From: a virus
Reading direction: 5' to 3' (one strand)
Virus record (IMG/VR): IMGVR_UViG_3300005582_000060
Span: 1-31,228 of that record
DNA: 31,228 nt
Shown: positions 3,148 to 31,228 of the stretch, one piece after another
How the letters are laid out: every line of letters begins with the position of its first letter
How positions within the stretch are numbered: position 1 is the stretch's first letter
Notes under the pieces: generated by a model
Seen by the model: the letters and a program-made list of their open reading frames with translations, nothing else
Told to the model about the DNA's origin: nothing
Database searches by the model: none
Made by a program: the position numbers and the translations under genes

Positions 3148-3343
3148 CTTTGTGTACTCCCTTATATGTTTCTTTAATCTTAAGATTTAGCATGATGGCT
3201 ATGTCTTGCACATTTTCAGCCATAGAAGCAAAGCCTTCTTTAGAAGCATCCCAATGTCCATACTCGCCCTCTCTGCATGAATCGTGCAAAGTCTGGAGCA
3301 TACCTTTAAGCTTTTCTTTTTTTTCTTTAAACTGATCATTCAT
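3140..3343 (-). CDS. Hypothetical protein, 67 aa, tandem paralog
   Basis: Unrecognised, but clearly a paralog of the upstream gene at 3336-3584. Both start MNDQFKEK, both carry LKGM[LI]QTLHDSC and SKEGF[AS][AS]M, and both end with a MLNL[KR]IK segment. The ATG at 3343 follows GAAGGAG. Relative to its neighbour this copy gains three residues after MNDQFKEK and lacks about ten around the GKTYIHMY segment. The DNA of the two copies is similar, so the duplication looks fairly recent. Confidence 0.8.
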   Translation of the reverse strand: MNDQFKEKKEKLKGMLQTLHDSCREGEYGHWDASKEGFASMAENVQDIAIMLNLKIKETYKGVHKDE

Positions 3344-3584
3344 TTGTTTCTACTCCTTCGCATTTGGAAAACGCAAATTCTTGTTCAAGTGCTTTAATTC
3401 TCAAGTTTAACATATACATATGGATATATGTTTTTCCAAGTAATGTGACTATCTCTTGCAAATTTTTAACCATAGCAGAAAAGCCTTCTTTAGATGGTTC
3501 CCAAGATTCATACTTGATCTCTGTGCATGAATCGTGCAAAGTCTGAATCATACCTTTAAGTTTTTCTTTAAATTGATCATTCAT
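3336..3584 (-). CDS. Hypothetical protein, 82 aa, tandem paralog
   Basis: Paralog of the adjacent 67-aa gene (shared MNDQFKEK, LKGMIQTLHDSC, SKEGFSAM). The ATG at 3584 follows AAGGAG. The product appears helical, with one conserved Cys and a Trp-containing turn (YESWEPSKEGF). Function unknown; the stop overlaps the next start by 8 bases. Confidence 0.8.
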   Translation of the reverse strand: MNDQFKEKLKGMIQTLHDSCTEIKYESWEPSKEGFSAMVKNLQEIVTLLGKTYIHMYMLNLRIKALEQEFAFSKCEGVETNE

Positions 3585-4053: not shown

Positions 4054-4407
4054 TTATTCTCCTATGTAATCCATATCTAGTAATTTCATAACGCCATAAG
4101 TATGAACATTTTCTTCCCCATCATGCACAAACTCAATTTGTACTCTCACATATATGCCACCATCTTTATGAATAAGCTTTCGCCCACTTATATAGATATT
4201 GGTAGCTATCTCTGTAGTACCGAATGTGTATCCTGTTGGTAGATAAAAGTCTGCTTTATCCCAGTCTGAAGACTTGAGGCATTCGCCAAACTTCCAACCA
4301 TCAGCGTGAACATAATAGCCAACCTTGGCTTCAACCTTCCATCCATTGATCACTTTAAACTTCGGACAATCCTTTGGATTAAGTGCAATGCTCATTCTCT
4401 TTTTCAT
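4054..4407 (-). CDS. Hypothetical protein, 117 aa
   Basis: Unrecognised. Two in-frame ATGs compete: 4413 touches the AAGGAG directly, while 4407 has six bases of spacing, so 4407 is preferred. The protein looks beta-rich with many Tyr, Trp and Gly residues (NGWKVEAKVGYYVHADGWKFG) and a strand ATNIYISGRKLIHKDGG. First gene after promoter copy 3. Confidence 0.75.
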   Translation of the reverse strand: MKKRMSIALNPKDCPKFKVINGWKVEAKVGYYVHADGWKFGECLKSSDWDKADFYLPTGYTFGTTEIATNIYISGRKLIHKDGGIYVRVQIEFVHDGEENVHTYGVMKLLDMDYIGE

Positions 4408-4442
4408 TTCCATCTCCTTGGTTAAGTTTAATCTCCATACTT

Positions 4443-4473
4443 AGTTATTCGTACAAACTCAATTTTTATTCAA
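4443..4473 (-). promoter_or_regulatory. Repeated promoter motif, copy 3
   Basis: Reads TTGAAT-N15-ACGAATAACT, followed by AAGTATGGAG. It overlaps the 3' end of the upstream gene by a few bases and would drive the seven-gene run 4054-4407 to 2684-2983. Confidence 0.7.
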
Positions 4474-6263: not shown

Positions 6264-6294
6264 TATTATTCGTACCAAAACCAATTTTATTCAA
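6264..6294 (-). promoter_or_regulatory. Repeated promoter motif, copy 4
   Basis: Reads TTGAAT-N15-ACGAATAATA, then CAGTATGG. It stands about 45 bases before the ATG at 6218 and would drive 6021-6218 through 4466-4690. Confidence 0.7.
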
Positions 6295-7136: not shown

Positions 7137-7167
7137 CATTATTCGTACCAGCTTCAGATTTATTCAA
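7137..7167 (-). promoter_or_regulatory. Repeated promoter motif, copy 5
   Basis: Reads TTGAAT-N15-ACGAATAATG, followed by AGGTATGG. It faces left towards the 56-aa gene and lies back to back with copy 6; the two TTGAAT blocks are 22 bases apart. Confidence 0.65.
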
Positions 7168-7189: not shown

Positions 7190-7220
7190 TTGAATAAAAG
7201 ACAACTTGAAACGAATAATA
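7190..7220 (+). promoter_or_regulatory. Repeated promoter motif, copy 6, the only rightward one
   Basis: TTGAAT-N15-ACGAATAATA reads directly on the plus strand. No gene follows on this strand, only the paired segment 7286-7364 and then the opposing promoter copy 7. It is therefore a candidate promoter for a non-coding RNA. Confidence 0.65.
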
Positions 7221-7285
7221 CAATAGAAGTGTGAGGGGCAACCGCATCAAACCCGCCTATAGGACTAGATTGTCTTGTGGGGATA

Positions 7286-7364
7286 GGGGAGTGCGTACTT
7301 GCAAAAAAAGCAGTATGTGGGCGTACCCTCCCCAAACCCGCTTATTGTTGGTAAGACAAACAGC
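7286..7364 (+). ncRNA. Structured segment between convergent promoters (family B, copy 6)
   Basis: GGGGAG..GTAC (7286-7298) pairs with GTAC.CTCCCC (7323-7333), and inside it TGC pairs with GCA around an A7 loop. After the linker AAACCC a second hairpin follows (7340-7364, outer pair GCT/AGC, loop containing TTGGTAAG). The stretch TGGGCGTACC..TCCCCAA..CCC is shared with 14555-14577. The strand is inferred from promoter copy 6; copy 7 could transcribe the other strand. Confidence 0.4.
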
Positions 7365-7405
7365 AGGGAGATCATTTCTCAAGTCGAATCGTATTGGCTA
7401 TACTT

Positions 7406-7436
7406 TATTATTCGTATGAGAACGAAAAATATTCAA
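7406..7436 (-). promoter_or_regulatory. Repeated promoter motif, copy 7
   Basis: Reads TTGAAT-N15-ACGAATAATA, then AAGTATAG. It lies directly after the DUF932 terminator and faces promoter copy 6 across about 190 bases without a gene. Confidence 0.65.
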
Positions 7437-7576: not shown

Positions 7577-8710
7577 TTAGGCGAACATAAGTTCTTTGCC
7601 CAAGATAGAGTGAACATCTTTGGTAGTCAAGGCATTAGCCTTATTGCGAAGTCCGATAAATTCAGATTCGCTATAGCTAGCCAAAGCACCACCAACCTCG
7701 TTAAGCTTCTCCCATGAGGATTCGCCAAGCTTTTGGCTTCCTCTGGTAAGGGAGTTGACCATACCAAAGAGAGTCTTCGCATAGAAGGGAGTCTCTTGGC
7801 GTTCAATATCCCAACCATTCTGAGCAGCATCGATCTCTGCCTTAGAGAACTTGTAGGTCTGAGCTACAGAGGCGAAGAGTGGAGTCATCGAAGCACCTTC
7901 TCCGAATACCATCTTCTTCGTACCTAATAGCTTATCAATCATCACAGGGATAGACTGAATGTGTTTGGCAATGCAGGATTGTATCTGATTAGCCAAGTGG
8001 CCTAGATCAACCTTGCCTCGATGTACTACACTTACATCGTCATGCCTTACCCACCCAATCATACCATTAGAACAGATGGTGCGAAAGACACCCGCTGAAA
8101 TGTCCAAGCGGTGCGTACCGATTTCGCTATTCTTGATCTTGATCAAGCCACCATAATCAGAGTCATCGTCAGAGCGAAGCGAAGCTGGCAGAACTACACT
8201 GAAGTTAATGTAATCATCACCAGATTTATCGCAAGCAACAGCTTGACCACATTCTTGTGGCAGAAACTGCCTAGTCTGATCCAAGACCCAATTGTTGTCG
8301 ATAACCGCATAACGATCACTTAAGAACGCCCTGCAACTATCATCTTGATCGTTGAATCTGAAAAACATTTCCTTATCGAAATCCTCTTGGAAGGATATAT
8401 CTACCAAATCCTTAAGAATAGTCTGGTGCTTGACATTATTAGAAGCATATAGCTTATTAAGCGTAAAGCTTCCCCATTTGGTCTTAGAGGCAAGCTGACT
8501 AAGGAAGTGCTTAGTTGGCTTATACAGCTTATTCGCTTGCCTATCTAAGATGTGAAACTTCTCATCAGCAACCACTGCTTTGACTTGAGGTTCAGTACCA
8601 CCCACAGTGCATAAAGCATCGTGATAATGGTTCTTGTTTTCATTGTAACGAGCTACAACACCCGCATACGCACTACCAGTAAAACCACGGACAGATCTAA
8701 CAGCATTCAT
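7577..8710 (-). CDS. DUF932-type phage/plasmid protein, 377 aa
   Basis: Resembles the DUF932 (phage/plasmid-like TIGR03299) family, found across phages and plasmids with no firm function. Supporting features are an early RYNENKNHYHDAL region, a central DRYAVIDN, and the family-like block HRLDISAGVFRTICSNGMIGW in the second half, followed by long helices. Length fits the family (about 300-400 aa). The ATG at 8710 follows AAGGAG; a GTGGC-TTT-GCCAC hairpin touches the ribosome site. It is a single-gene unit with its own promoter (8769-8799) and terminator (7438-7486), suggesting strong or separate expression. It is the largest gene of the leftward arm. Confidence 0.75.
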   Translation of the reverse strand: MNAVRSVRGFTGSAYAGVVARYNENKNHYHDALCTVGGTEPQVKAVVADEKFHILDRQANKLYKPTKHFLSQLASKTKWGSFTLNKLYASNNVKHQTILKDLVDISFQEDFDKEMFFRFNDQDDSCRAFLSDRYAVIDNNWVLDQTRQFLPQECGQAVACDKSGDDYINFSVVLPASLRSDDDSDYGGLIKIKNSEIGTHRLDISAGVFRTICSNGMIGWVRHDDVSVVHRGKVDLGHLANQIQSCIAKHIQSIPVMIDKLLGTKKMVFGEGASMTPLFASVAQTYKFSKAEIDAAQNGWDIERQETPFYAKTLFGMVNSLTRGSQKLGESSWEKLNEVGGALASYSESEFIGLRNKANALTTKDVHSILGKELMFA

Positions 8711-8768: not shown

Positions 8769-8799
8769 CATTATTCGTACAAACACGAATTTTATTCAA
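8769..8799 (-). promoter_or_regulatory. Repeated promoter motif, copy 8
   Basis: Reads TTGAAT-N15-ACGAATAATG. It overlaps the stop region of the upstream gene (8796-8984) and lies about 60 bases before the DUF932 ATG. Confidence 0.7.
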
Positions 8800-9628: not shown

Positions 9629-9659
9629 AGTTATTCGTTTCAAACCCAAATTTATTCAC
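9629..9659 (-). promoter_or_regulatory. Repeated promoter motif, copy 9
   Basis: Reads GTGAAT-N15-ACGAATAACT, then ATATATGGAG. Its left block touches the TAG of the upstream gene. It would drive 9350-9610, 8981-9337 and 8796-8984. Confidence 0.65.
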
Positions 9660-9829: not shown

Positions 9830-9860
9830 TATTATTCGTACGAACATGATTTTTATTCAA
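9830..9860 (-). promoter_or_regulatory. Repeated promoter motif, copy 10
   Basis: Reads TTGAAT-N15-ACGAATAATA, followed by AAGTATGAG; an exact consensus copy. It lies about 40 bases before the ATG at 9793, with a box pair 20 bases upstream. Confidence 0.75.
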
Positions 9861-10018: not shown

Positions 10019-10049
10019 TATTATTCGTTTGAACTTGAAAATTATTCAA
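10019..10049 (-). promoter_or_regulatory. Repeated promoter motif, copy 11
   Basis: Reads TTGAAT-N15-ACGAATAATA. The bases after it (GAAAGGAAAACAA) are shared with promoter copy 18, and both are followed by element A rather than a gene. A box pair lies 20 bases upstream. Confidence 0.65.
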
Positions 10050-10088: not shown

Positions 10089-10169
10089 ATTTTTGGCTTT
10101 GGTGGTATGGGTAATCCGCTTGCTATTCGGGCATTACTTCGGGAACTCCAGTGGTATCCATAGGACACC
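10089..10169. repeat. Hairpin element B1
   Basis: Contains GGTATCC-ATA-GGACACC (10153-10169), the same stem-loop design as 11870-11888 in B2, with shared flanks (CCGCTTGCT or ACGCTTGCT, then GGGCA and GGAAC). No T-run follows here. Confidence 0.4.
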
Positions 10170-10244
10170 GCCAGATTAAAATTTAACTTTTTTGTTCATT
10201 GGATAAAAGTTATAAACCAATTTTGAAATCTCTGAAGAATTGTC

Positions 10245-11322: not shown

Positions 11323-11353
11323 TATTATTCGTACAAACTTACTTTTTATTCAA
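11323..11353 (-). promoter_or_regulatory. Repeated promoter motif, copy 12
   Basis: Reads TTGAAT-N15-ACGAATAATA, then AGATATGAG. It lies about 35 bases before the ATG at 11288 and drives the operon containing the membrane microproteins. Confidence 0.75.
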
Positions 11354-11582: not shown

Positions 11583-11613
11583 TATTATTCGTATGAACTC
11601 TAAAATTATTCAA
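11583..11613 (-). promoter_or_regulatory. Repeated promoter motif, copy 13
   Basis: Reads TTGAAT-N15-ACGAATAATA, then GAGTATGG. It lies about 45 bases before the ATG at 11542, with a box pair 20 bases upstream. Confidence 0.75.
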
Positions 11614-11739: not shown

Positions 11740-11770
11740 TATTATTCGTTTGAAACACAAAATTATTCAA
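11740..11770 (-). promoter_or_regulatory. Repeated promoter motif, copy 14
   Basis: Reads TTGAAT-N15-ACGAATAATA. Element A2 begins just downstream with no gene before the next promoter (copy 13). Confidence 0.65.
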
Positions 11771-11807: not shown

Positions 11808-11900
11808 TTGCAAGCTTTTTGGCAGGGCAAAGACGCTTGCTAGCAGGGCATACCATCAGGAACCTCGGTGGTGTCCATAGGACACACCAAGCTTTTTTTT
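11808..11900. repeat. Hairpin element B2 with plus-strand T-run
   Basis: GGTGTCC-ATA-GGACACACC (11870-11888) is followed on the plus strand by AAGC and eight T, a good rightward intrinsic terminator. Flanks match B1. Every nearby gene reads leftward, so the terminator would act on antisense transcripts, perhaps those from 10245-10274. Confidence 0.55.
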
Positions 11901-12004: not shown

Positions 12005-12250
12005 TTATATATAATTATTCGTATGAGGACCGATATTATTCAAAAAATAATCCCATTTCTTTTTAAAATCTGTATGCAGATATCGCATACAAGTTTGGGC
12101 AATGTTACGATATCCAACAATTTTGGCAACAACCTTTACTCTTGCCATATTGCATACCTTGCAATAGTGGCGTTGAAATATGTTTCCATCATCATCGGTA
12201 TCTTGACCTAGATTTTGCCATTTACCATGATTACAGTTTTTAACTATCAT
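12005..12250 (-). CDS. Putative zinc-binding small protein, 81 aa
   Basis: Unrecognised family. The ATG at 12250 follows GGGGGA. Cys6-x-His8 and, about 22 residues later, CKVC form a possible four-ligand zinc site in the N-terminal half; the second half is basic (MARVKVVAKIVGYRN, FKKKW). Promoter copy 15 lies wholly inside its last codons. Second gene after promoter copy 16. Confidence 0.7.
   Translation of the reverse strand: MIVKNCNHGKWQNLGQDTDDDGNIFQRHYCKVCNMARVKVVAKIVGYRNIAQTCMRYLHTDFKKKWDYFLNNIGPHTNNYI
12013..12043 (-). promoter_or_regulatory. Repeated promoter motif, copy 15, inside a gene
   Basis: Reads TTGAAT-N15-ACGAATAATT. It is embedded in the 3' coding end of 12005-12250 and leads into the non-coding B2 region, not directly to a gene. 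Confidence 0.6.
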
Positions 12251-12262
12251 CTTACTTCCCCC

Positions 12263-12949
12263 TTAGTGGTATATGTATGCGACATTGTTAACATCTTTAT
12301 CCCAACATTTACGGCAATCGTTGCAGTTTACCTTGCTTGCACCATTGAAAGCTTCAAGGCTTGCAGGGCAAATATTTTGATGACGATCATCCGCATTAAC
12401 TGGAGTTCTTATTGCAGTGCTTGTAGGCAATCCTAACCCCTTACTAGGCACTTGATCGACCATGTACATACTTGGCCTAACAGTGAAGTTACTTGCAAAT
12501 TCGCCATGTATAGCTAGGTATTCCCGAACCATACCATGTTCCTTGGTAGGTAACCAAAACTTAACTTCTGGCAGGGCAATAGCAATCTCATTCATTGCTA
12601 CTAACATTTCCAAACTTTGAACATCGCCCGAAGTAAACCACCTAAAGTATGCTTGCGTTTTATCCCGCATATGTTTATATTTCTTGCCCAATGCTTTGAT
12701 AAAAGCTTCTTTCCAAACTTCAAGCCCCTTGTTAAGCTCATTAAACCTGTTGGTGTTAGCATCTTTGACGATACCGAACCCATACCTACCTTTTAGGGCA
12801 TAACACCCTTCGCATATGCTACCCTTGACATTTACCAATTTACCGCCTGTTTTACATTCAAACGCTGGAATATCCCACGATATCCAAGGCATTTTTTCCG
12901 TTTGACTAAACTTGATTTCGACTGGCTTGATAACTTCTAAGCTTAACAT
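12263..12949 (-). CDS. gp88-like Cys-rich phage protein, 228 aa
   Basis: Resembles the phage gene-product-88 family, of unknown function. The N-terminal block has Trp-rich WISWDIPAFECKTGG and SICEGCYALKGRYG (C-x2-CYA..G.Y). The C-terminal block has NICPASLEAF and NCNDCRKCW ending near YIYH, the usual Cys cluster of that family. The conserved cysteines could hold a metal or an iron-sulphur cluster; this is inference. The ATG at 12949 follows AAGGAAAG. First gene after promoter copy 16. Confidence 0.6.
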   Translation of the reverse strand: MLSLEVIKPVEIKFSQTEKMPWISWDIPAFECKTGGKLVNVKGSICEGCYALKGRYGFGIVKDANTNRFNELNKGLEVWKEAFIKALGKKYKHMRDKTQAYFRWFTSGDVQSLEMLVAMNEIAIALPEVKFWLPTKEHGMVREYLAIHGEFASNFTVRPSMYMVDQVPSKGLGLPTSTAIRTPVNADDRHQNICPASLEAFNGASKVNCNDCRKCWDKDVNNVAYIYH

Positions 12950-12984: not shown

Positions 12985-13015
12985 TATTATTCGTTTCAGA
13001 CTCAAAATTATTCAA
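12985..13015 (-). promoter_or_regulatory. Repeated promoter motif, copy 16
   Basis: Reads TTGAAT-N15-ACGAATAATA, then TGATAGGAAAG. It lies about 40 bases before the ATG at 12949 and drives the gp88-like and zinc-binding genes. Confidence 0.75.
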
Positions 13016-13017
13016 AC

Positions 13018-13275
13018 TTATTTTATTTTTTCACAATTATTTTCAAATTCTTCAAGTAGTGCTTGCTCACATTCAAATTTTAAGATCATTCTTTCAGTAA
13101 GCTTTTCAAGATCAAAATCTTCAATAGCTTTATTGGTAGTTGTTAAGATATCCCAATTCGGTTCAATTTTTTCATCATCTATCACGATTTCAAAATCATC
13201 ATCTTTATTGCCCAAATATTCGATAAGATCATCTTGATTTTGTTCCCACTGGCCATCATCATTAAAGTTAATCAT
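13018..13275 (-). CDS. Hypothetical acidic protein, 85 aa
   Basis: Unrecognised. The ATG at 13275 follows AAAGGAAAC. Strongly acidic throughout (FNDDGQWEQNQDDLIEYLGNKDDDFEIVIDDE), ending in a charged helix. The acidic, Asn-rich surface could suit DNA mimicry or inhibitor binding, but that is speculation. Single-gene unit from promoter copy 17. Confidence 0.75.
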   Translation of the reverse strand: MINFNDDGQWEQNQDDLIEYLGNKDDDFEIVIDDEKIEPNWDILTTTNKAIEDFDLEKLTERMILKFECEQALLEEFENNCEKIK

Positions 13276-13317: not shown

Positions 13318-13348
13318 TATTATTCGTTTTAACTTACAATTTATTCAA
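13318..13348 (-). promoter_or_regulatory. Repeated promoter motif, copy 17
   Basis: Reads TTGAAT-N15-ACGAATAATA, then AAGTATGG. It lies about 45 bases before the ATG at 13275, with a box pair 20 bases upstream. Confidence 0.75.
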
Positions 13349-13513: not shown

Positions 13514-13544
13514 TATTATTCGTTTGAAACTTAAATTTATTCAA
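13514..13544 (-). promoter_or_regulatory. Repeated promoter motif, copy 18
   Basis: Reads TTGAAT-N15-ACGAATAATA, then TAGTATGAAAGG. No gene follows before promoter copy 17; its transcript would start with element A3. Confidence 0.65.
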
Positions 13545-13632: not shown

Positions 13633-13643
13633 TCCGCAAGCCC

Positions 13644-13733
13644 GCCAGTCTTGGTAAGACAGGCAGGTGTTTTTTTTCTTGGCCTATCGGCCGGGCTTTC
13701 TCTTCGAGAAATCCATCGAGGGGCTTTCGCCCC
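13644..13733. repeat. Hairpin element B3 with plus-strand T-run
   Basis: Four hairpins: GCC-A-GTCTT-GGT-AAGAC-A-GGC (13644-13664) followed by eight T on the plus strand; GGCC-TATC-GGCC (13681-13692); TTTCTC/GAGAAA (13697-13711); GGGGC/GCCCC (13720-13733), whose loop reads GAAA on the minus strand. A 20-base block around the second hairpin is identical in B5. Confidence 0.6.
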
Positions 13734-14079: not shown

Positions 14080-14110
14080 TATTATTCGTATGAAGTCTAA
14101 TTTTATTCAA
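14080..14110 (-). promoter_or_regulatory. Repeated promoter motif, copy 19
   Basis: Reads TTGAAT-N15-ACGAATAATA, then TAGCAAGAG. It lies about 40 bases before the ATG at 14044. Confidence 0.7.
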
Positions 14111-14438: not shown

Positions 14439-14469
14439 TATTATCCGATTGAACTTAGAATTTATTCAA
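14439..14469 (-). promoter_or_regulatory. Repeated promoter motif, copy 20
   Basis: Reads TTGAAT-N15-TCGGATAATA, two changes from consensus in the right block, but followed by the typical AAGTATGAAGG. It drives 14137-14382. Confidence 0.65.
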
Positions 14470-14842: not shown

Positions 14843-14873
14843 TATTATTCGTTTGAACTATAAATTTATTCAA
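14843..14873 (-). promoter_or_regulatory. Repeated promoter motif, copy 21
   Basis: Reads TTGAAT-N15-ACGAATAATA, then TGATAGGTAAGG. It drives 14622-14801 and has no clear box pair upstream. It is the rightmost copy found. Confidence 0.75.
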
Positions 14874-14926: not shown

Positions 14927-15061
14927 ATCGGCCGATCTTAGCCTATAGGCATAGCTTCCCTAAGCCCGTTGGTCTTGGTAAGACAAACAGGTGTTTTTTA
15001 TTTTGGCCTATCGGCCGGGCTTTCCATCTTACGATGTTAAGCCATTGTTAGCCTTACGGCT
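14927..15061. repeat. Hairpin element B5 with plus-strand T-run
   Basis: Perfect palindromes ATCGGCCGAT (14927-14936) and GCCTATAGGC (14941-14950), then GTT-G-GTCTT-GGT-AAGAC-A-AAC (14968-14988) followed by six T (14994-14999). Next are GGCC-TATC-GGCC (15005-15016), CATC/GATG (15025-15036) and AGCC/GGCT (15050-15061), the last two with GTAA loops on the minus strand. The final hairpin overlaps the stop of the next gene. Confidence 0.6.
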
Positions 15062-15363: not shown

Positions 15364-15897
15364 CTATACACACCCTAAAATTCCATCATCTTCACATATC
15401 ATTGCCAACCCTTTTTGGTATGTACCATGGGCAGAACCTAGACTAATATCTAAGATAGAAGCTATTTGGTAGAAATCGTTTCCATGTGCCCGCAATACCA
15501 ATACATCGTGTTCTTTTCGTGTGATAATTCCAGCATCGAAATTATCCTTTAAGTGCATTTTAAGTACTTGCATTGTGTCAAGTCGTTTACCTTGAATTTC
15601 TTTATTGTTTCCATCTTCTTTATCCATCATTTTGGTAATGGAAGTCTTTTTATAGTATTTGTGATTAATTCTTCTTAATCCATCAATAACTTTTCGATTA
15701 AACAAATACCAGCAAAAAGTAGCAAACTTAGCACCTTTATTAGGATTATACTTACGAATAGCGACATAGATAACATCTTGTGCTAAGTCTTGGCAATCTG
15801 CATTTTGAAAGCCATATTTACGGCCTACACCTACCATTTTTGCGGTGATAGTTACGATTTCTTCATTAGATACACCAACCATATTTTCCATATTCAT
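15364..15897 (-). CDS. Phage RNA polymerase sigma factor, sigma-70 superfamily, 177 aa
   Basis: A two-domain sigma factor in the size range of alternative (ECF-like) sigmas. Region 2 is at about residues 30-76: DCQDLAQDVIYVAIRKYNP, then GAKFATFCWYLFNRKVIDGLRR, matching the core-binding and -10-recognition helices. Region 4 is at about 127-166: HDVLVLRAHGNDFYQIAS, then LDISLGSAHGTYQKGLAMI, a helix-turn-helix that would read the -35 block. A Lys-rich linker joins them. The ATG at 15897 follows AAGGA at eight bases; 37 further in-frame codons upstream lack a site. It lies next to the arm with 21 copies of a non-standard promoter and is the best candidate to read them. It has no such copy itself. 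Confidence 0.8.
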   Translation of the reverse strand: MNMENMVGVSNEEIVTITAKMVGVGRKYGFQNADCQDLAQDVIYVAIRKYNPNKGAKFATFCWYLFNRKVIDGLRRINHKYYKKTSITKMMDKEDGNNKEIQGKRLDTMQVLKMHLKDNFDAGIITRKEHDVLVLRAHGNDFYQIASILDISLGSAHGTYQKGLAMICEDDGILGCV

Positions 15898-16534: not shown

Positions 16535-16681
16535 ATGAACAAAGATGAACCAATTGAAGTAGAAACTAGAATTAAGGTGATAGCAGGGTGTGTATTACCA
16601 GAACCAGAACTGTTGGCTCCAACACCCCCCATTGAACAGGCGTTAGCCAGTATCGAAGAGAACATCATAAAAGATGAGTAA
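16535..16681 (+). CDS. Hypothetical acidic protein, 48 aa
   Basis: Short gene at the head of the rightward operon. The ATG at 16535 follows GGTGAT, and the stop overlaps the next start by 8 bases. The product is acidic with a central Pro-rich stretch (LPEPELLAPTPPIEQ) between charged ends. No family seen. Confidence 0.6.
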   Translation: MNKDEPIEVETRIKVIAGCVLPEPELLAPTPPIEQALASIEENIIKDE

Positions 16682-17267
16682 TTATCCGCATGGATTAAAA
16701 GAAGAAGATGTCATAATAGCTTTAAAGAAAGCGATCAACCTTCTTGCCCCAACATTTACTTTCGGATATTACGATGTGGAAGACATTAGGCAGGAAGCTT
16801 ACATATTTGGACTTGAATCTTTATCTCGCTATGACCCATCTCGCCCCTTAGAAAACTTTCTTTATTCGCACATTAAAAACAGACTTATTAATTTCAAGAG
16901 AGACAAGTATCATAGGACAGATCCCCCATGTAAATCATGTCATGACTCGAACAAATGTTCAGATGGCAATTACTGCGAAAAGTATAAGGCATGGAAGAAA
17001 AGGAATTCGTCTAAGCAAAATTTAATGCGACCCTTAGATATACAGACAATCTCAGACGATACAGAAAAGAACGCACACGGAAAACAATCTGTTGTAGATG
17101 AGGCGAACATATCTGAGTGTTCTAATCTAATAGACTTGCACCTTCCTGTTGAACTTCGTTCAATATATCTTAGAATTAAAGCTGGTGAGTCTGTTCCCAA
17201 AATAAAAAAGCAAAGAGTTGAACAAGCAATTAAGGAGATCCTCAATGGCAGGAAAGAAGCTGAATAG
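16674..17267 (+). CDS. Second sigma-like factor with a four-Cys insert, 197 aa
   Basis: Residues 34-78 (DVEDIRQEAYIFGLESLSRY, then PLENFLYSHIKNRLINFKRDKY) match sigma-70 region 2. Directly after comes a Cys cluster, C86-x2-C89-x5-C95-x5-C101, able to bind zinc and not usual in sigma factors. The C-terminal part (LPVELRSIYLRIKAGESV.. IKKQRVEQAIKEIL) is a weak region-4-like helical pair. It heads the operon for packaging and capsid genes, so a role in late transcription, comparable to T4 gp55, is attractive but unproven. The ribosome site is weak; translation is probably coupled to the 48-aa gene. Confidence 0.65.
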   Translation: MSNYPHGLKEEDVIIALKKAINLLAPTFTFGYYDVEDIRQEAYIFGLESLSRYDPSRPLENFLYSHIKNRLINFKRDKYHRTDPPCKSCHDSNKCSDGNYCEKYKAWKKRNSSKQNLMRPLDIQTISDDTEKNAHGKQSVVDEANISECSNLIDLHLPVELRSIYLRIKAGESVPKIKKQRVEQAIKEILNGRKEAE

Positions 17268-28103: not shown

Positions 28104-31100
28104 ATGCACTTCCAAAGAAACATAACACGAATACAAGATCAAGATGACTTTTCTGGAGTACCAACCTCTGGAGAAGTCGTTTTTTTTGATGGTCAAAGTT
28201 TTATTACAGCAGACATTACTGGATATCAAGGATCGCAGGGTAGACAGGGAAATCAAGGTTATCAAGGATTTCAAGGCATAACTGGTTTTCAAGGTTTAAC
28301 TGGAGCAGGAAGTCAGGGGGATCAAGGTCTAATTGGATTGCAGGGTTTTCAAGGTATTGCAGGAACAATTGGTAATCAAGGCTTTCAAGGTATCGTGGGA
28401 GCCATAGGTTCACAAGGATTTCAAGGGAACCAAGGATTTCAAGGTATCGTAGGAACAATTGGTAATCAAGGCTTTCAAGGAGTAATCGGATCTTCTGGTG
28501 GAATAACTTTAGCCGTTACTAATTCTGGATCTGGTTCTTATACAATAAATGGTTCAGCTAATCCAATTCTATCTTTTATTCGAGGCCATAGATATGTAAT
28601 TAATGTTTCCGCAATTGGTCATCCTTTTTGGATTCAAACAGTCTCAGGTTCTTATAGCCCATTAAATATTTATAATGATGGAGTAACAAATAACGGAACA
28701 GATAACGGAACAATTATATTTGAAGTTCCTTTTAATGCCCCTCAACTTTATTATGCTTGCCAATATCATTCATCAATGGCTGGTTCTATTACAGTATCTA
28801 ATTTAGGTCCAACAGGATCTCAAGGAAACCAAGGATTTCAAGGCGTTGTTGGAACCACAGGATCACAAGGTAGCCAAGGAACAGTGGGAACCACAGGCTC
28901 ACAAGGTTCACAGGGTAACCAAGGATTTCAAGGCATCGTTGGAACTACTGGAAACCAAGGATCACAAGGCAATCAGGGGTTTCAAGGAAATCAAGGCGAA
29001 CAAGGATTACAAGGAATAACTGGTTTTCAAGGTGTTGAAGGTGTAGCTGGAATAGATGCATTATGGAACTTCACAGGTGCTTACAATGGCGGTGCAGCAT
29101 ATGCCGTAGGTGATATAGCAACCTATTTAGGGCAAACTTGGTATCGTGTAAATTCTAATGGTGGGAATGTTGGTGATGCTCCCATAGAAGGAACTTTTTT
29201 ATGGACACTGATTTCTGCAAAAGGAGATCAGGGTGATCAAGGCTCACAAGGAAACCAAGGAGAACAGGGTTTACAAGGAAATCAGGGTGATCAAGGTTCA
29301 CAAGGTAATCAAGGGGAACAGGGTTCTCAGGGCGATCAAGGATCTCAAGGCAATCAGGGCGAACAAGGTAATCAGGGTTATCAAGGCGAGCGTGGAATTG
29401 GTTCATTGTCTTGGACATACAAAGTAAATACAACGACTCTTACAGATCTTGACCCTACCAATGATTATATAAGTTTTAATGCTGATCCTTTTACTTCGGC
29501 TACTCAAGTTAAAGTAGATGATAATCCATACGGAATAAATACTACTTTACATGATTTATTCTTAAGTATTCAGAGTGGTTATTTAACTTTAACAGATCAA
29601 GCCAATCCTTCAACATATGTTACTTATCAAATAAATTCTTGTGTAGATGGTACTTCAACAAACGATACTGAAGATGGAAGTTATGTAATCTTTAATGTGG
29701 CACTAGTTAGTACATACGGAGTAATAAATAACGAAGATTTTGTTACTTTGTCTATTGGACTTGTTGGTTCACAAGGATCGCAGGGTAATCAAGGTGATCA
29801 AGGCTCACAGGGAAATCAGGGGGGGCAAGGCAATCAAGGTTCCCAAGGCGACCAAGGCAATCAAGGATTACAAGGAAGTCAAGGAGAACAAGGATCGCAA
29901 GGTGATCAAGGCAATTATGGGAACCAAGGTGATCAAGGCGATCAAGGATCGCAAGGCAATCAGGGTGACCAAGGAAATCAAGGCACAACACCTTTAATTT
30001 GCACTACGCAAAACACAGGCGAATATTATTTTCAAGCAGTAGGTGAAAATTACTATCAAAGCCCTATAGCAACAGGATTGGCATTTGGTGCTGGACAAAT
30101 ACTGTCTGTATACGCACCCACTGATAATATTATACAGTACATGAGAATAACTTCTTATAACCCCACAACAGGGGATATAGTTGCAGTCGTTACACATTCT
30201 TTAAGCCCAGGATTTAAAACATATAACACGCTTTCAATTTGTCTTGCAGGAAAAATTGGCGAGCAAGGTTCACAGGGCGATCAAGGATCACAAGGGAGTC
30301 AAGGAGATCAGGGAAATCAAGGCAATCAAGGCAATCAAGGCGACCAAGGTAACCAAGGATTACAAGGCGAACAAGGAAATCAAGGTGGTCAAGGCTCGCA
30401 AGGAAACCAAGGATTACAAGGCAATCAAGGATCAGATGCATTATGGAATTTCACAGGTGCTTATAGCGGTGGTGCATCATACTCCATAGGTGATGTAGCA
30501 ACTTACTCAGGTGAAACTTGGTATCGTGTTGGTGCTAATGGTGGTAATGTTGGAGATATTCCTTCGCCAGGATTCTGGACATTAATTGCTCAGAAAGGTG
30601 ACCAAGGCGAACAAGGTTCACAGGGTAATCAGGGCGACCAAGGTTTCCAAGGAAATCAAGGTTCACAAGGAGAGCAGGGAGAACAAGGAATTCAAGGTGA
30701 TCAAGGATTTCAAGGAGAACAAGGCAATCAGGGTGAACAGGGATTGCAAGGATATCAAGGCAATCAAGGAGAACAGGGAAATCAAGGTGATCAGGGATCA
30801 CAAGGCGATCAAGGCAATTATGGAAATCAAGGTGACCAAGGATATCAGGGATCAACTGGTAGTTTTGGCGGTGTAACAGTTGAATATAAAATAGATACAA
30901 ATAATTATTCAATTAACGACCCAGGCGATAACTACATAAGATTTAACAATGCTTCTCTTGCATCAGCTACGCATGTTATAATTGATGATAATCCAAATAA
31001 TGCAAACATAGATCTTTCTCTATTCTTAGCTACGATCTCTGCTTCAACAAGCACGATGAAGGGCCACTTTAAATTATCTAAGAAAAATGACTCTACAGTA

Positions 31101-31228
31101 TTTGCACTTTACACCATAAGCAATTCCTCAGAAGAAGAACCTAGTTTCTTTGATGTTACAATTTCTTATTTATCTGGAAGCGGAACATTTTCTAATGACG
31201 ATGAAGTATTGCTCACTTTTGCAAGAAC
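28104..31228 (+). CDS. Collagen-like modular tail fibre, partial, at least 1041 aa
   Basis: Starts at 28104 after GGAG and stays open to the window end. Gly-x-Gln triplets (GNQGFQG, GDQGSQG) form collagen-like trimeric stalks between globular inserts. Inserts: residues about 133-232, a cupredoxin-like domain with GHPF and CQYHSSM; about 318-372 and 778-830, two copies of a carbohydrate-binding-like module (DALWNFTGAY, then ATY.G.TWYR and a final W); about 432-553 and 918 onward, two related beta domains (WTYKVNT and VEYKIDT starts, each with DDNP); about 629-716, a further domain with two Cys. It probably binds host surface sugars. Confidence 0.8.
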   Translation, partial: MHFQRNITRIQDQDDFSGVPTSGEVVFFDGQSFITADITGYQGSQGRQGNQGYQGFQGITGFQGLTGAGSQGDQGLIGLQGFQGIAGTIGNQGFQGIVGAIGSQGFQGNQGFQGIVGTIGNQGFQGVIGSSGGITLAVTNSGSGSYTINGSANPILSFIRGHRYVINVSAIGHPFWIQTVSGSYSPLNIYNDGVTNNGTDNGTIIFEVPFNAPQLYYACQYHSSMAGSITVSNLGPTGSQGNQGFQGVVGTTGSQGSQGTVGTTGSQGSQGNQGFQGIVGTTGNQGSQGNQGFQGNQGEQGLQGITGFQGVEGVAGIDALWNFTGAYNGGAAYAVGDIATYLGQTWYRVNSNGGNVGDAPIEGTFLWTLISAKGDQGDQGSQGNQGEQGLQGNQGDQGSQGNQGEQGSQGDQGSQGNQGEQGNQGYQGERGIGSLSWTYKVNTTTLTDLDPTNDYISFNADPFTSATQVKVDDNPYGINTTLHDLFLSIQSGYLTLTDQANPSTYVTYQINSCVDGTSTNDTEDGSYVIFNVALVSTYGVINNEDFVTLSIGLVGSQGSQGNQGDQGSQGNQGGQGNQGSQGDQGNQGLQGSQGEQGSQGDQGNYGNQGDQGDQGSQGNQGDQGNQGTTPLICTTQNTGEYYFQAVGENYYQSPIATGLAFGAGQILSVYAPTDNIIQYMRITSYNPTTGDIVAVVTHSLSPGFKTYNTLSICLAGKIGEQGSQGDQGSQGSQGDQGNQGNQGNQGDQGNQGLQGEQGNQGGQGSQGNQGLQGNQGSDALWNFTGAYSGGASYSIGDVATYSGETWYRVGANGGNVGDIPSPGFWTLIAQKGDQGEQGSQGNQGDQGFQGNQGSQGEQGEQGIQGDQGFQGEQGNQGEQGLQGYQGNQGEQGNQGDQGSQGDQGNYGNQGDQGYQGSTGSFGGVTVEYKIDTNNYSINDPGDNYIRFNNASLASATHVIIDDNPNNANIDLSLFLATISASTSTMKGHFKLSKKNDSTVFALYTISNSSEEEPSFFDVTISYLSGSGTFSNDDEVLLTFAR

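Follow-up and report, generated by a model that had tools for sequence, protein, structure and literature searches.

A phage-encoded sigma factor and some twenty putative promoters that appear to be recoded in step with its recognition helix

The DNA analyzed here (the window) is a 31,228-base IMG/VR virus record, a fragment without annotation. The minus strand of positions 15364-15897 translates to 177 amino acids and a stop codon, as stated in an earlier reading of the letters alone (the sequence-only reading), which described the product as a phage sigma factor with both region 2 and region 4. Indeed, Pfam Sigma70_r2 (PF04542) recognized region 2 with 27.5 bits, above the curated cut-off of 24. 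Region 4 was weak in Pfam for this single sequence (E 0.13), but PF04545 exceeded its cut-off in the relative L265, and the region was also recovered by profile searches and in an AlphaFold2 model. The protein, here called sigma1, matched profiles of FliA, WhiG, SigW, SigH and SigE, and its best solved relatives in a PDB profile search were FliA/WhiG (E 5e-10 to 7e-7). The AlphaFold2 model showed two helical domains, approximately residues 11-82 (region 2) and 108-171 (region 4), with a disordered linker of ~25 residues (82-106) between them in place of region 3. The second helix of the helix-turn-helix, the recognition helix, starts in this model at about residue 153 (IS-LGSAHGTYQK). In structural alignments the N-terminal domain superposed on region 2 and the C-terminal domain on the -35-binding domains of sigma factors (Z ~8); the Z values are modest, yet the profile search, with FliA/WhiG as best match, agrees. 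For region 4, the matches by profile and by fold were to the corresponding region of SigD, SigR, SigE, SigW and sigma-28. Judged by these comparisons of sequence and modelled fold, in which both regions were found, sigma1 belongs to the sigma-70 superfamily. The PHROG sigma family matched weakly (0.004), and the collections searched contained no relative of sigma1, nor of the sigma2 described below, from a cultured phage. Matches to toxin-like or eukaryotic proteins with E near 1 were set aside as chance.

The sequence-only reading furthermore gave sigma1 a plain sigma-70-like promoter. A candidate of the host sigma-70 type, TTGGCA-16-TATAAT, was found on the minus strand at 16224-16197, ~300 nt upstream of the start codon, matching 11 of 12 positions. 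It is graded plausible but weak because the upstream region holds 10 promoter-like sites where 4.8 +/- 2.5 are expected. The candidate is partly kept in G012, G005, G007 and G004 and is missing in G001/G003.

Positions 16674-17267 of the plus strand encode, divergently from sigma1, another sigma-like protein, sigma2, of 197 amino acids. Pfam recognized region 2 only, with no detectable region 4, and the protein carries a cysteine-rich insert, CKSCHDSNKCSDGNYC. Sigma2 stands at the head of the structural arm, which includes genes for a GDP-mannose dehydratase, an ERCC4 nuclease, the terminase (at best ~25% identical to Bacillus phages) and the portal. Every relative in which the region is present has a sigma2 of 37-100% identity, and sigma2 occurs in far more relatives than sigma1. 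The large sigma1-bearing contigs encode essentially two region-2 proteins, sigma1 and sigma2 (the sigma1 of G002 fell below the Pfam threshold and was detected with its own family), while sigma2 is the only region-2 protein in two long sigma1-less contigs. A position heading the structural arm suits a late sigma factor, and sigma2 is a candidate of this kind, probably serving the late genes in a widespread group of uncultured phages. De novo word and dyad enrichment in the structural arms yielded no late motif, the output consisting of ribosome-binding words, AT-rich words and a collagen-like repeat. This repeat (Gly-X-Gln; GGNxQGxxG, 9-base unit) occupies the right end of the window, 28200-31228 on the plus strand, and also occurs in G002, G006, G020 and G024. 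No relative of sigma2 was encoded in bacterial genome contigs. An internal TGA in the sigma2 of G042 turned out to be simply the gene end, and recoding of this codon is therefore not claimed.

The opposite arm, headed by sigma1, carries the repeated motif TTGAATAA-N13-ACGAATAA. With up to 3 mismatches allowed, all 21 copies reported in the sequence-only reading were recovered; the minus strand has 20 of them and the plus strand one, each with a spacer of 13 nt. With the spacer pattern allowed in the search 16 copies are exact, against 0 in dinucleotide shuffles, and the placement of the sigma gene at the head of the motif-bearing arm was borne out. Most copies precede a small ORF by 6-266 nt. 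Exact copies on the minus strand are found at 4445-4473 (upstream of ORF 4054-4413), 6266-6294, 7139-7167, 8771-8799 (upstream of ORF 7577-8710, DUF932), 9832-9860, 10021-10049, 11325-11353, 11585-11613, 11742-11770, 12015-12043, 12987-13015 (upstream of ORF 12263-12949, GP88 family), 13320-13348 (upstream of ORF 13018-13275), 13516-13544, 14082-14110 and 14845-14873, the last being nearest to sigma1. The sole plus-strand copy (7190-7218), also exact, forms a divergent pair with the copy at 7139-7167, precedes the small plus-strand ORF 7231-7419 and is kept in G012. Single mismatches occur in the minus-strand copies at 2659-2687 and 7408-7436, and two mismatches, with right block TCGGATAA, at 14441-14469. 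The two remaining minus-strand copies, at 9631-9659 (GTGAATAA) and 1285-1313 (CTAAATAA as left block, upstream of ORF 873-1235), are discussed below. The logo of sites of the window's type shows a conserved TA after the motif, at positions 35-36. If the A of this TA were the start site, the left block would span -35 to -28 and the right block -14 to -7, a normal promoter geometry.

Other repeats were observed in the same arm. GC-richer intergenic elements, GTCTTGGTAAGACA...GGCCTATCGGCCGGGC, lie at 13633-13700, 14957-15024, 10103-10177 and 11820-11894; they are 72-87% alike, stand 3' of several motifs and may be structured leaders or terminators. Rfam gave no match in the window, these elements included, and a tRNA scan of the window was likewise empty. 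A 124-nt direct repeat in the left arm (3196-3319 and 3446-3569, 84% identical) is probably a small gene duplication.

Relatives of the window were collected as IMG/VR records (G001-G061) by collection scans and direct searches; all records are fragments. The sigma1 relatives (22-94% identity) adjoin sigma2, and every sigma1 record with enough of the arm has the motif or a variant of it, with 1-29 sites on the sigma1 strand and 0-1 on the reverse strand. In nine records that lack sigma1, covering 3.4-23 kb of arm each and ~73 kb in all, 0 motif sites were found; two of these records overlap in sequence, and such records are distant and partly fragments. In the 141.8-kb contig of G002 nearly all copies fall within the arm, and 2 others were found outside it on the minus strand. 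A motif scan of 78 contigs returned mostly single chance matches in unrelated contigs, multiple copies being confined to sigma1-bearing contigs. Single-protein scans for types B, C and A (G012; types are defined below) and for the G009 type added no further lineages. Among the records examined, no related phage was found that has the motif and lacks such a sigma factor. The left arm of one sigma1-less record, L268 (G042), holds a different dyad, TGAGACA-N13-GGCACT, repeated 11 times on the arm strand within 10.5 kb, which may represent another promoter or repeat type.

A de novo dyad search, run without prior knowledge of the motif, recovered the TTGAATAA type in phages of the window's kind (type A phages). 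Three further types emerged from the same search: nTAAATAA-N13-ACGAATA in G009 and G015-G019 (type B), TAAATAA-N13-[AG]CGAATAAG in G024/G031/G032 (type C) and GTAAATA..GGCGAATA in G038 (type D). Compared to type A, the spacing in types B, C and D is identical and the right block nearly so, while the left block reads nTAAATAA. At base 3 of the left block, 68 of 69 A sites have G, while 59/59 B, 23/24 C and 5/5 D sites have A. The types also differ in gene content between sigma2 and sigma1: type B has a 251-aa gene there, and types C and D (L265 = G031, L267 = G038) have two extra genes of 196 and 186 aa, the second of which is 2-oxoglutarate oxygenase-like by eye.

Orthologous promoter sites were paired by their downstream sequence. 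In 18 cross-type orthologous groups, which are not independent replicates of a protein-DNA link since a single event in evolution may account for the A/B split, base 3 is G in the A sites and A in the others, with one exception, located in the window. Among A-B pairs (n=86) base 3 differs in 99%, bases 2, 4-6 and 23-27 differ in 0%, and the spacer positions differ in 13-84% each; the 45 A-A pairs whose downstream sequences are comparably diverged show no difference in either block. The copy at 12015-12043 is orthologous to a CTAAATAA site of G019 with an identical spacer, ATATCGGTCCT. The GTGAATAA copy at 9631-9659 has a B orthologue reading GTAAATAA, so that within the block base 3 alone has changed in this group. 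The exception is the stray site at 1285-1313, which has CTAAATAA as in its B orthologue, with downstream sequence 94.6% identical, where the A phage G002 has TTGAATAA. The simplest reading is that a gene was imported here from a B phage and its promoter is yet to be recoded.

The protein shows a parallel difference in its recognition helix. Helix identity is 49-75% within A or within B and 12-21% between A and the others. In A the helix is ISxGSA[HF]G; G004, whose arm is not long enough for promoter typing, has one G in place of S. The B helix reads LSxGRISQIW, near the TEGRISQIL of WhiG. Region 2, in contrast to the helix, has diverged within A (28-39% identity) to about the same extent as across types (27-37% for A against the others), which agrees with their common right block. 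Columns 151, 156, 158 and 162 of sigma1 are fixed in A and absent elsewhere, and such A-specific columns are enriched in the helix (4/12 vs 9/165, Fisher p = 0.006). In a gapless alignment to SigE, residues 158 and 162 of sigma1 correspond to S172 and R176. Apart from the residues named in the structural report cited next, the SigE letters in this alignment are those we take to be correct. S172 and R176 of SigE read bases -34 and -35 in crystal structures (PMC6713349). Positions at which the A-type helix departs from the others are thus counterparts of base-reading residues in SigE/SigW. The sequence-only reading had offered the link between protein and motif as an inference and had asked whether related phages keep the two together and change them together. 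This is what was found: -35 block and recognition helix switch with the sigma clade, and co-occurrence and concerted switch both support the link.

Phylogenetic analysis separated the history of sigma1 from that of the core genes. In a tree of terminase, portal and GMD the B phage G009 groups with the clade of the window (100/99), and monophyly of the A phages is rejected by these core genes (p-AU 0.00075). In the sigma1 tree all A phages are grouped (98/97) and G009 stands with B (99/98), although its long branches call for care. As the two trees disagree, promoter type follows sigma1 and not the core. G011 (GP88 94.7%, sigma1 84%) has an A-type arm on a different core and seems to carry the whole arm. 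G012 is 96.5% identical to the window over ~14.5 kb from position 15885, the very start of sigma1, and its sigma2 is 100% identical to that of the window; its sigma1 is just 46% identical, yet the helix ISLGSAHG and the motif are unchanged. It appears that sigma1 was exchanged between G000 and G012 with the helix class kept. Because sigma1 and most promoters lie on one arm and are moved together by recombination, co-occurrence taken alone is partly hitchhiking.

Taken together, these data make it very probable that the phage-encoded sigma1 reads the ~20-21 near-identical promoters of its arm, which in relatives would have been recoded in step with its helix. Sigma1 would be a sigma factor of ECF size, with regions 2 and 4 only, redirecting the core of the host RNA polymerase to the ~20 TTGAATAA-N13-ACGAATAA promoters, with region 2 reading the right block (~-14 to -7) and region 4 the left block (~-35 to -28). 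In type A phages the host holoenzyme would make sigma1 first, from a sigma-70-like promoter (the weak candidate at 16224-16197), whereas in type B sigma1 would be made from a promoter of its own kind. Indeed, the motif is absent upstream of sigma1 in type A phages and present there in the B-type G016-G019, which suggests self-amplification. Sigma2 would take the structural arm after sigma1. The simple cascade proposed in the sequence-only reading, from host enzyme to phage sigma factor to 21 promoters, is for these reasons, the B-type motif preceding sigma1 and the second sigma-like gene heading the opposite arm, probably not three-step. The origin of the circuit may lie in a sigma-28-like code, TAAA-N15-GCGAATA, which B, C and D still use, or the circuit may have converged on this code. 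The type A helix would have changed (~GRISQI to GSA[HF]G) and all promoters of that type would have followed (TAAA to TTGAA), a direction that we infer.

It is quite unlikely that the motif is instead a strong early promoter for the primary (or flagellar) sigma factor of the host, with sigma1 serving another role and the A/B difference reflecting different hosts. TTGAAT-N18-AATAAT does match a sigma-70 promoter at 9/12 positions, a host sigma-28 would also favour the TAAA types, and phage early promoters read by a host sigma factor can be highly conserved, as in T4. However, the motif is absent from sigma1-less relatives, and conservation of the ACGAATAA right block extends well past a sigma-70 -10 element. 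The -35 block also changes in line with the sigma1 recognition helix, the terminases of A and B phages are up to 90% identical, and the type A sigma1 has no motif of its own. Sigma2, a sigma-like neighbour whose own tree unites the A phages (94/93, unstarred, a topology that by itself does not separate the hypotheses), is a highly improbable reader of the motif: it has no detectable region 4 for a -35 block, is nearly identical among A phages, is 37-54% identical in records without any motif, and by its place at the head of the structural arm fits a late sigma factor.

The correlation of helix and -35 block could also be a by-product of common ancestry on one arm, with no functional coupling, and the A-type arm of G011 on a different core indeed shows that the arm moves as a block. 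This explanation is unlikely nonetheless. Both blocks stay fixed while spacers and genes of the arm drift freely, and it is one and the same base that has switched at all orthologous promoters. In the apparent exchange between G000 and G012, 15 kb from the first codons on are 96% identical and the helix class was kept although sigma1 itself was replaced. Linkage by itself also leaves unexplained that region 2 is as diverged within A as between types and the helix is not.

If direct reading of the arm promoters by sigma1 is true, a regulon of at least 20 promoters has been recoded in a lineage with core genes up to 90% identical. It is possible, though doubtful, that sigma-promoter modules of this kind are interchangeable and orthogonal, the -35 code being a private address swapped or rewritten as a unit. 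In that case co-infecting relatives would be kept from reading each other's genes, and the stray CTAAATAA site would mark a recently imported gene still awaiting recoding. Ready-made orthogonal sigma-promoter pairs are predicted. A few model phages are known to have sigma factors with dedicated promoters, and here a full set can be traced through uncultured freshwater phages. This provides a natural data set on changes in sigma -35 specificity, a question usually approached by engineering, and offers a means of predicting promoters and timing for phages that resist cultivation.

Of the known systems, sigma-28 (FliA, SigD, WhiG) is similar in promoter layout. The sigma-28 consensus is TAAAGTTT-n11-GCCGATAA (PMC2859248; PMC8325347). 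Written as TAAA-N15-GCCGATAA, this code has TAAA, the exact spacing and CGA in common with types B-D, the last bases being different: the -10 block is CGAATA, not CGATAA, and type A has TTGAA, not TAAA. The B-type helix EGRISQI is aligned with an identical EGRISQI in WhiG. The sequence-only reading had seen a faint recall of sigma-28 in the right block; the likeness stood and proved more than faint, with TAAA-N15-(G)GCGAATA in relatives and FliA/WhiG as best profile match. However, the sigma1 family measures 156-178 aa, with regions 2 and 4 and without region 3, and all types tested scored 20-40 bits with NCBIfam FliA_WhiG (TIGR02479), for which the cut-off is 189.6. By curated score and architecture, sigma1 is therefore not a FliA/WhiG member, though similar in promoter layout. 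With the ECF sigma factors (SigW, SigE, SigH) the sigma1 model shares the two-domain architecture and a similar region 4 fold; TIGR02937 (cut-off 42.9) gave 46, 43.8, 53.5 and 59.6 bits for types B, C and D and 33.5-41.1 bits for A types. Unlike in ECF systems, the promoter code is sigma-28-like and not GGAAC-like, and no anti-sigma gene was recognized beside sigma1 or among the window ORFs scanned with Pfam.

A phage sigma factor with its own promoters is an already known kind. Gp28 (middle) and gp34 (late) of SPO1 and gp55 (late) of T4 are phage sigma factors that capture the host core in a cascade (PMC9429907). One sigma factor per arm, as found here, fits such a middle/late pair, but sigma1 showed no sequence match to these proteins beyond the weak PHROG family. 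The promoter code also differs from that of SPO1 gp28. For the single-subunit RNA polymerases of the T7/T3 type, entire promoter sets are known to co-diverge with the DNA-reading part of the polymerase (Joho 1990 and Rong 1998, cited in PMC11617373). The reader here is, unlike those polymerases, a sigma factor, presumably working with the host core, and the switch is confined to the -35 block. What would be new is the natural, T7/T3-like concerted recoding of ~20 promoters in step with the recognition helix of a sigma factor, to which the sequences of these phages point.
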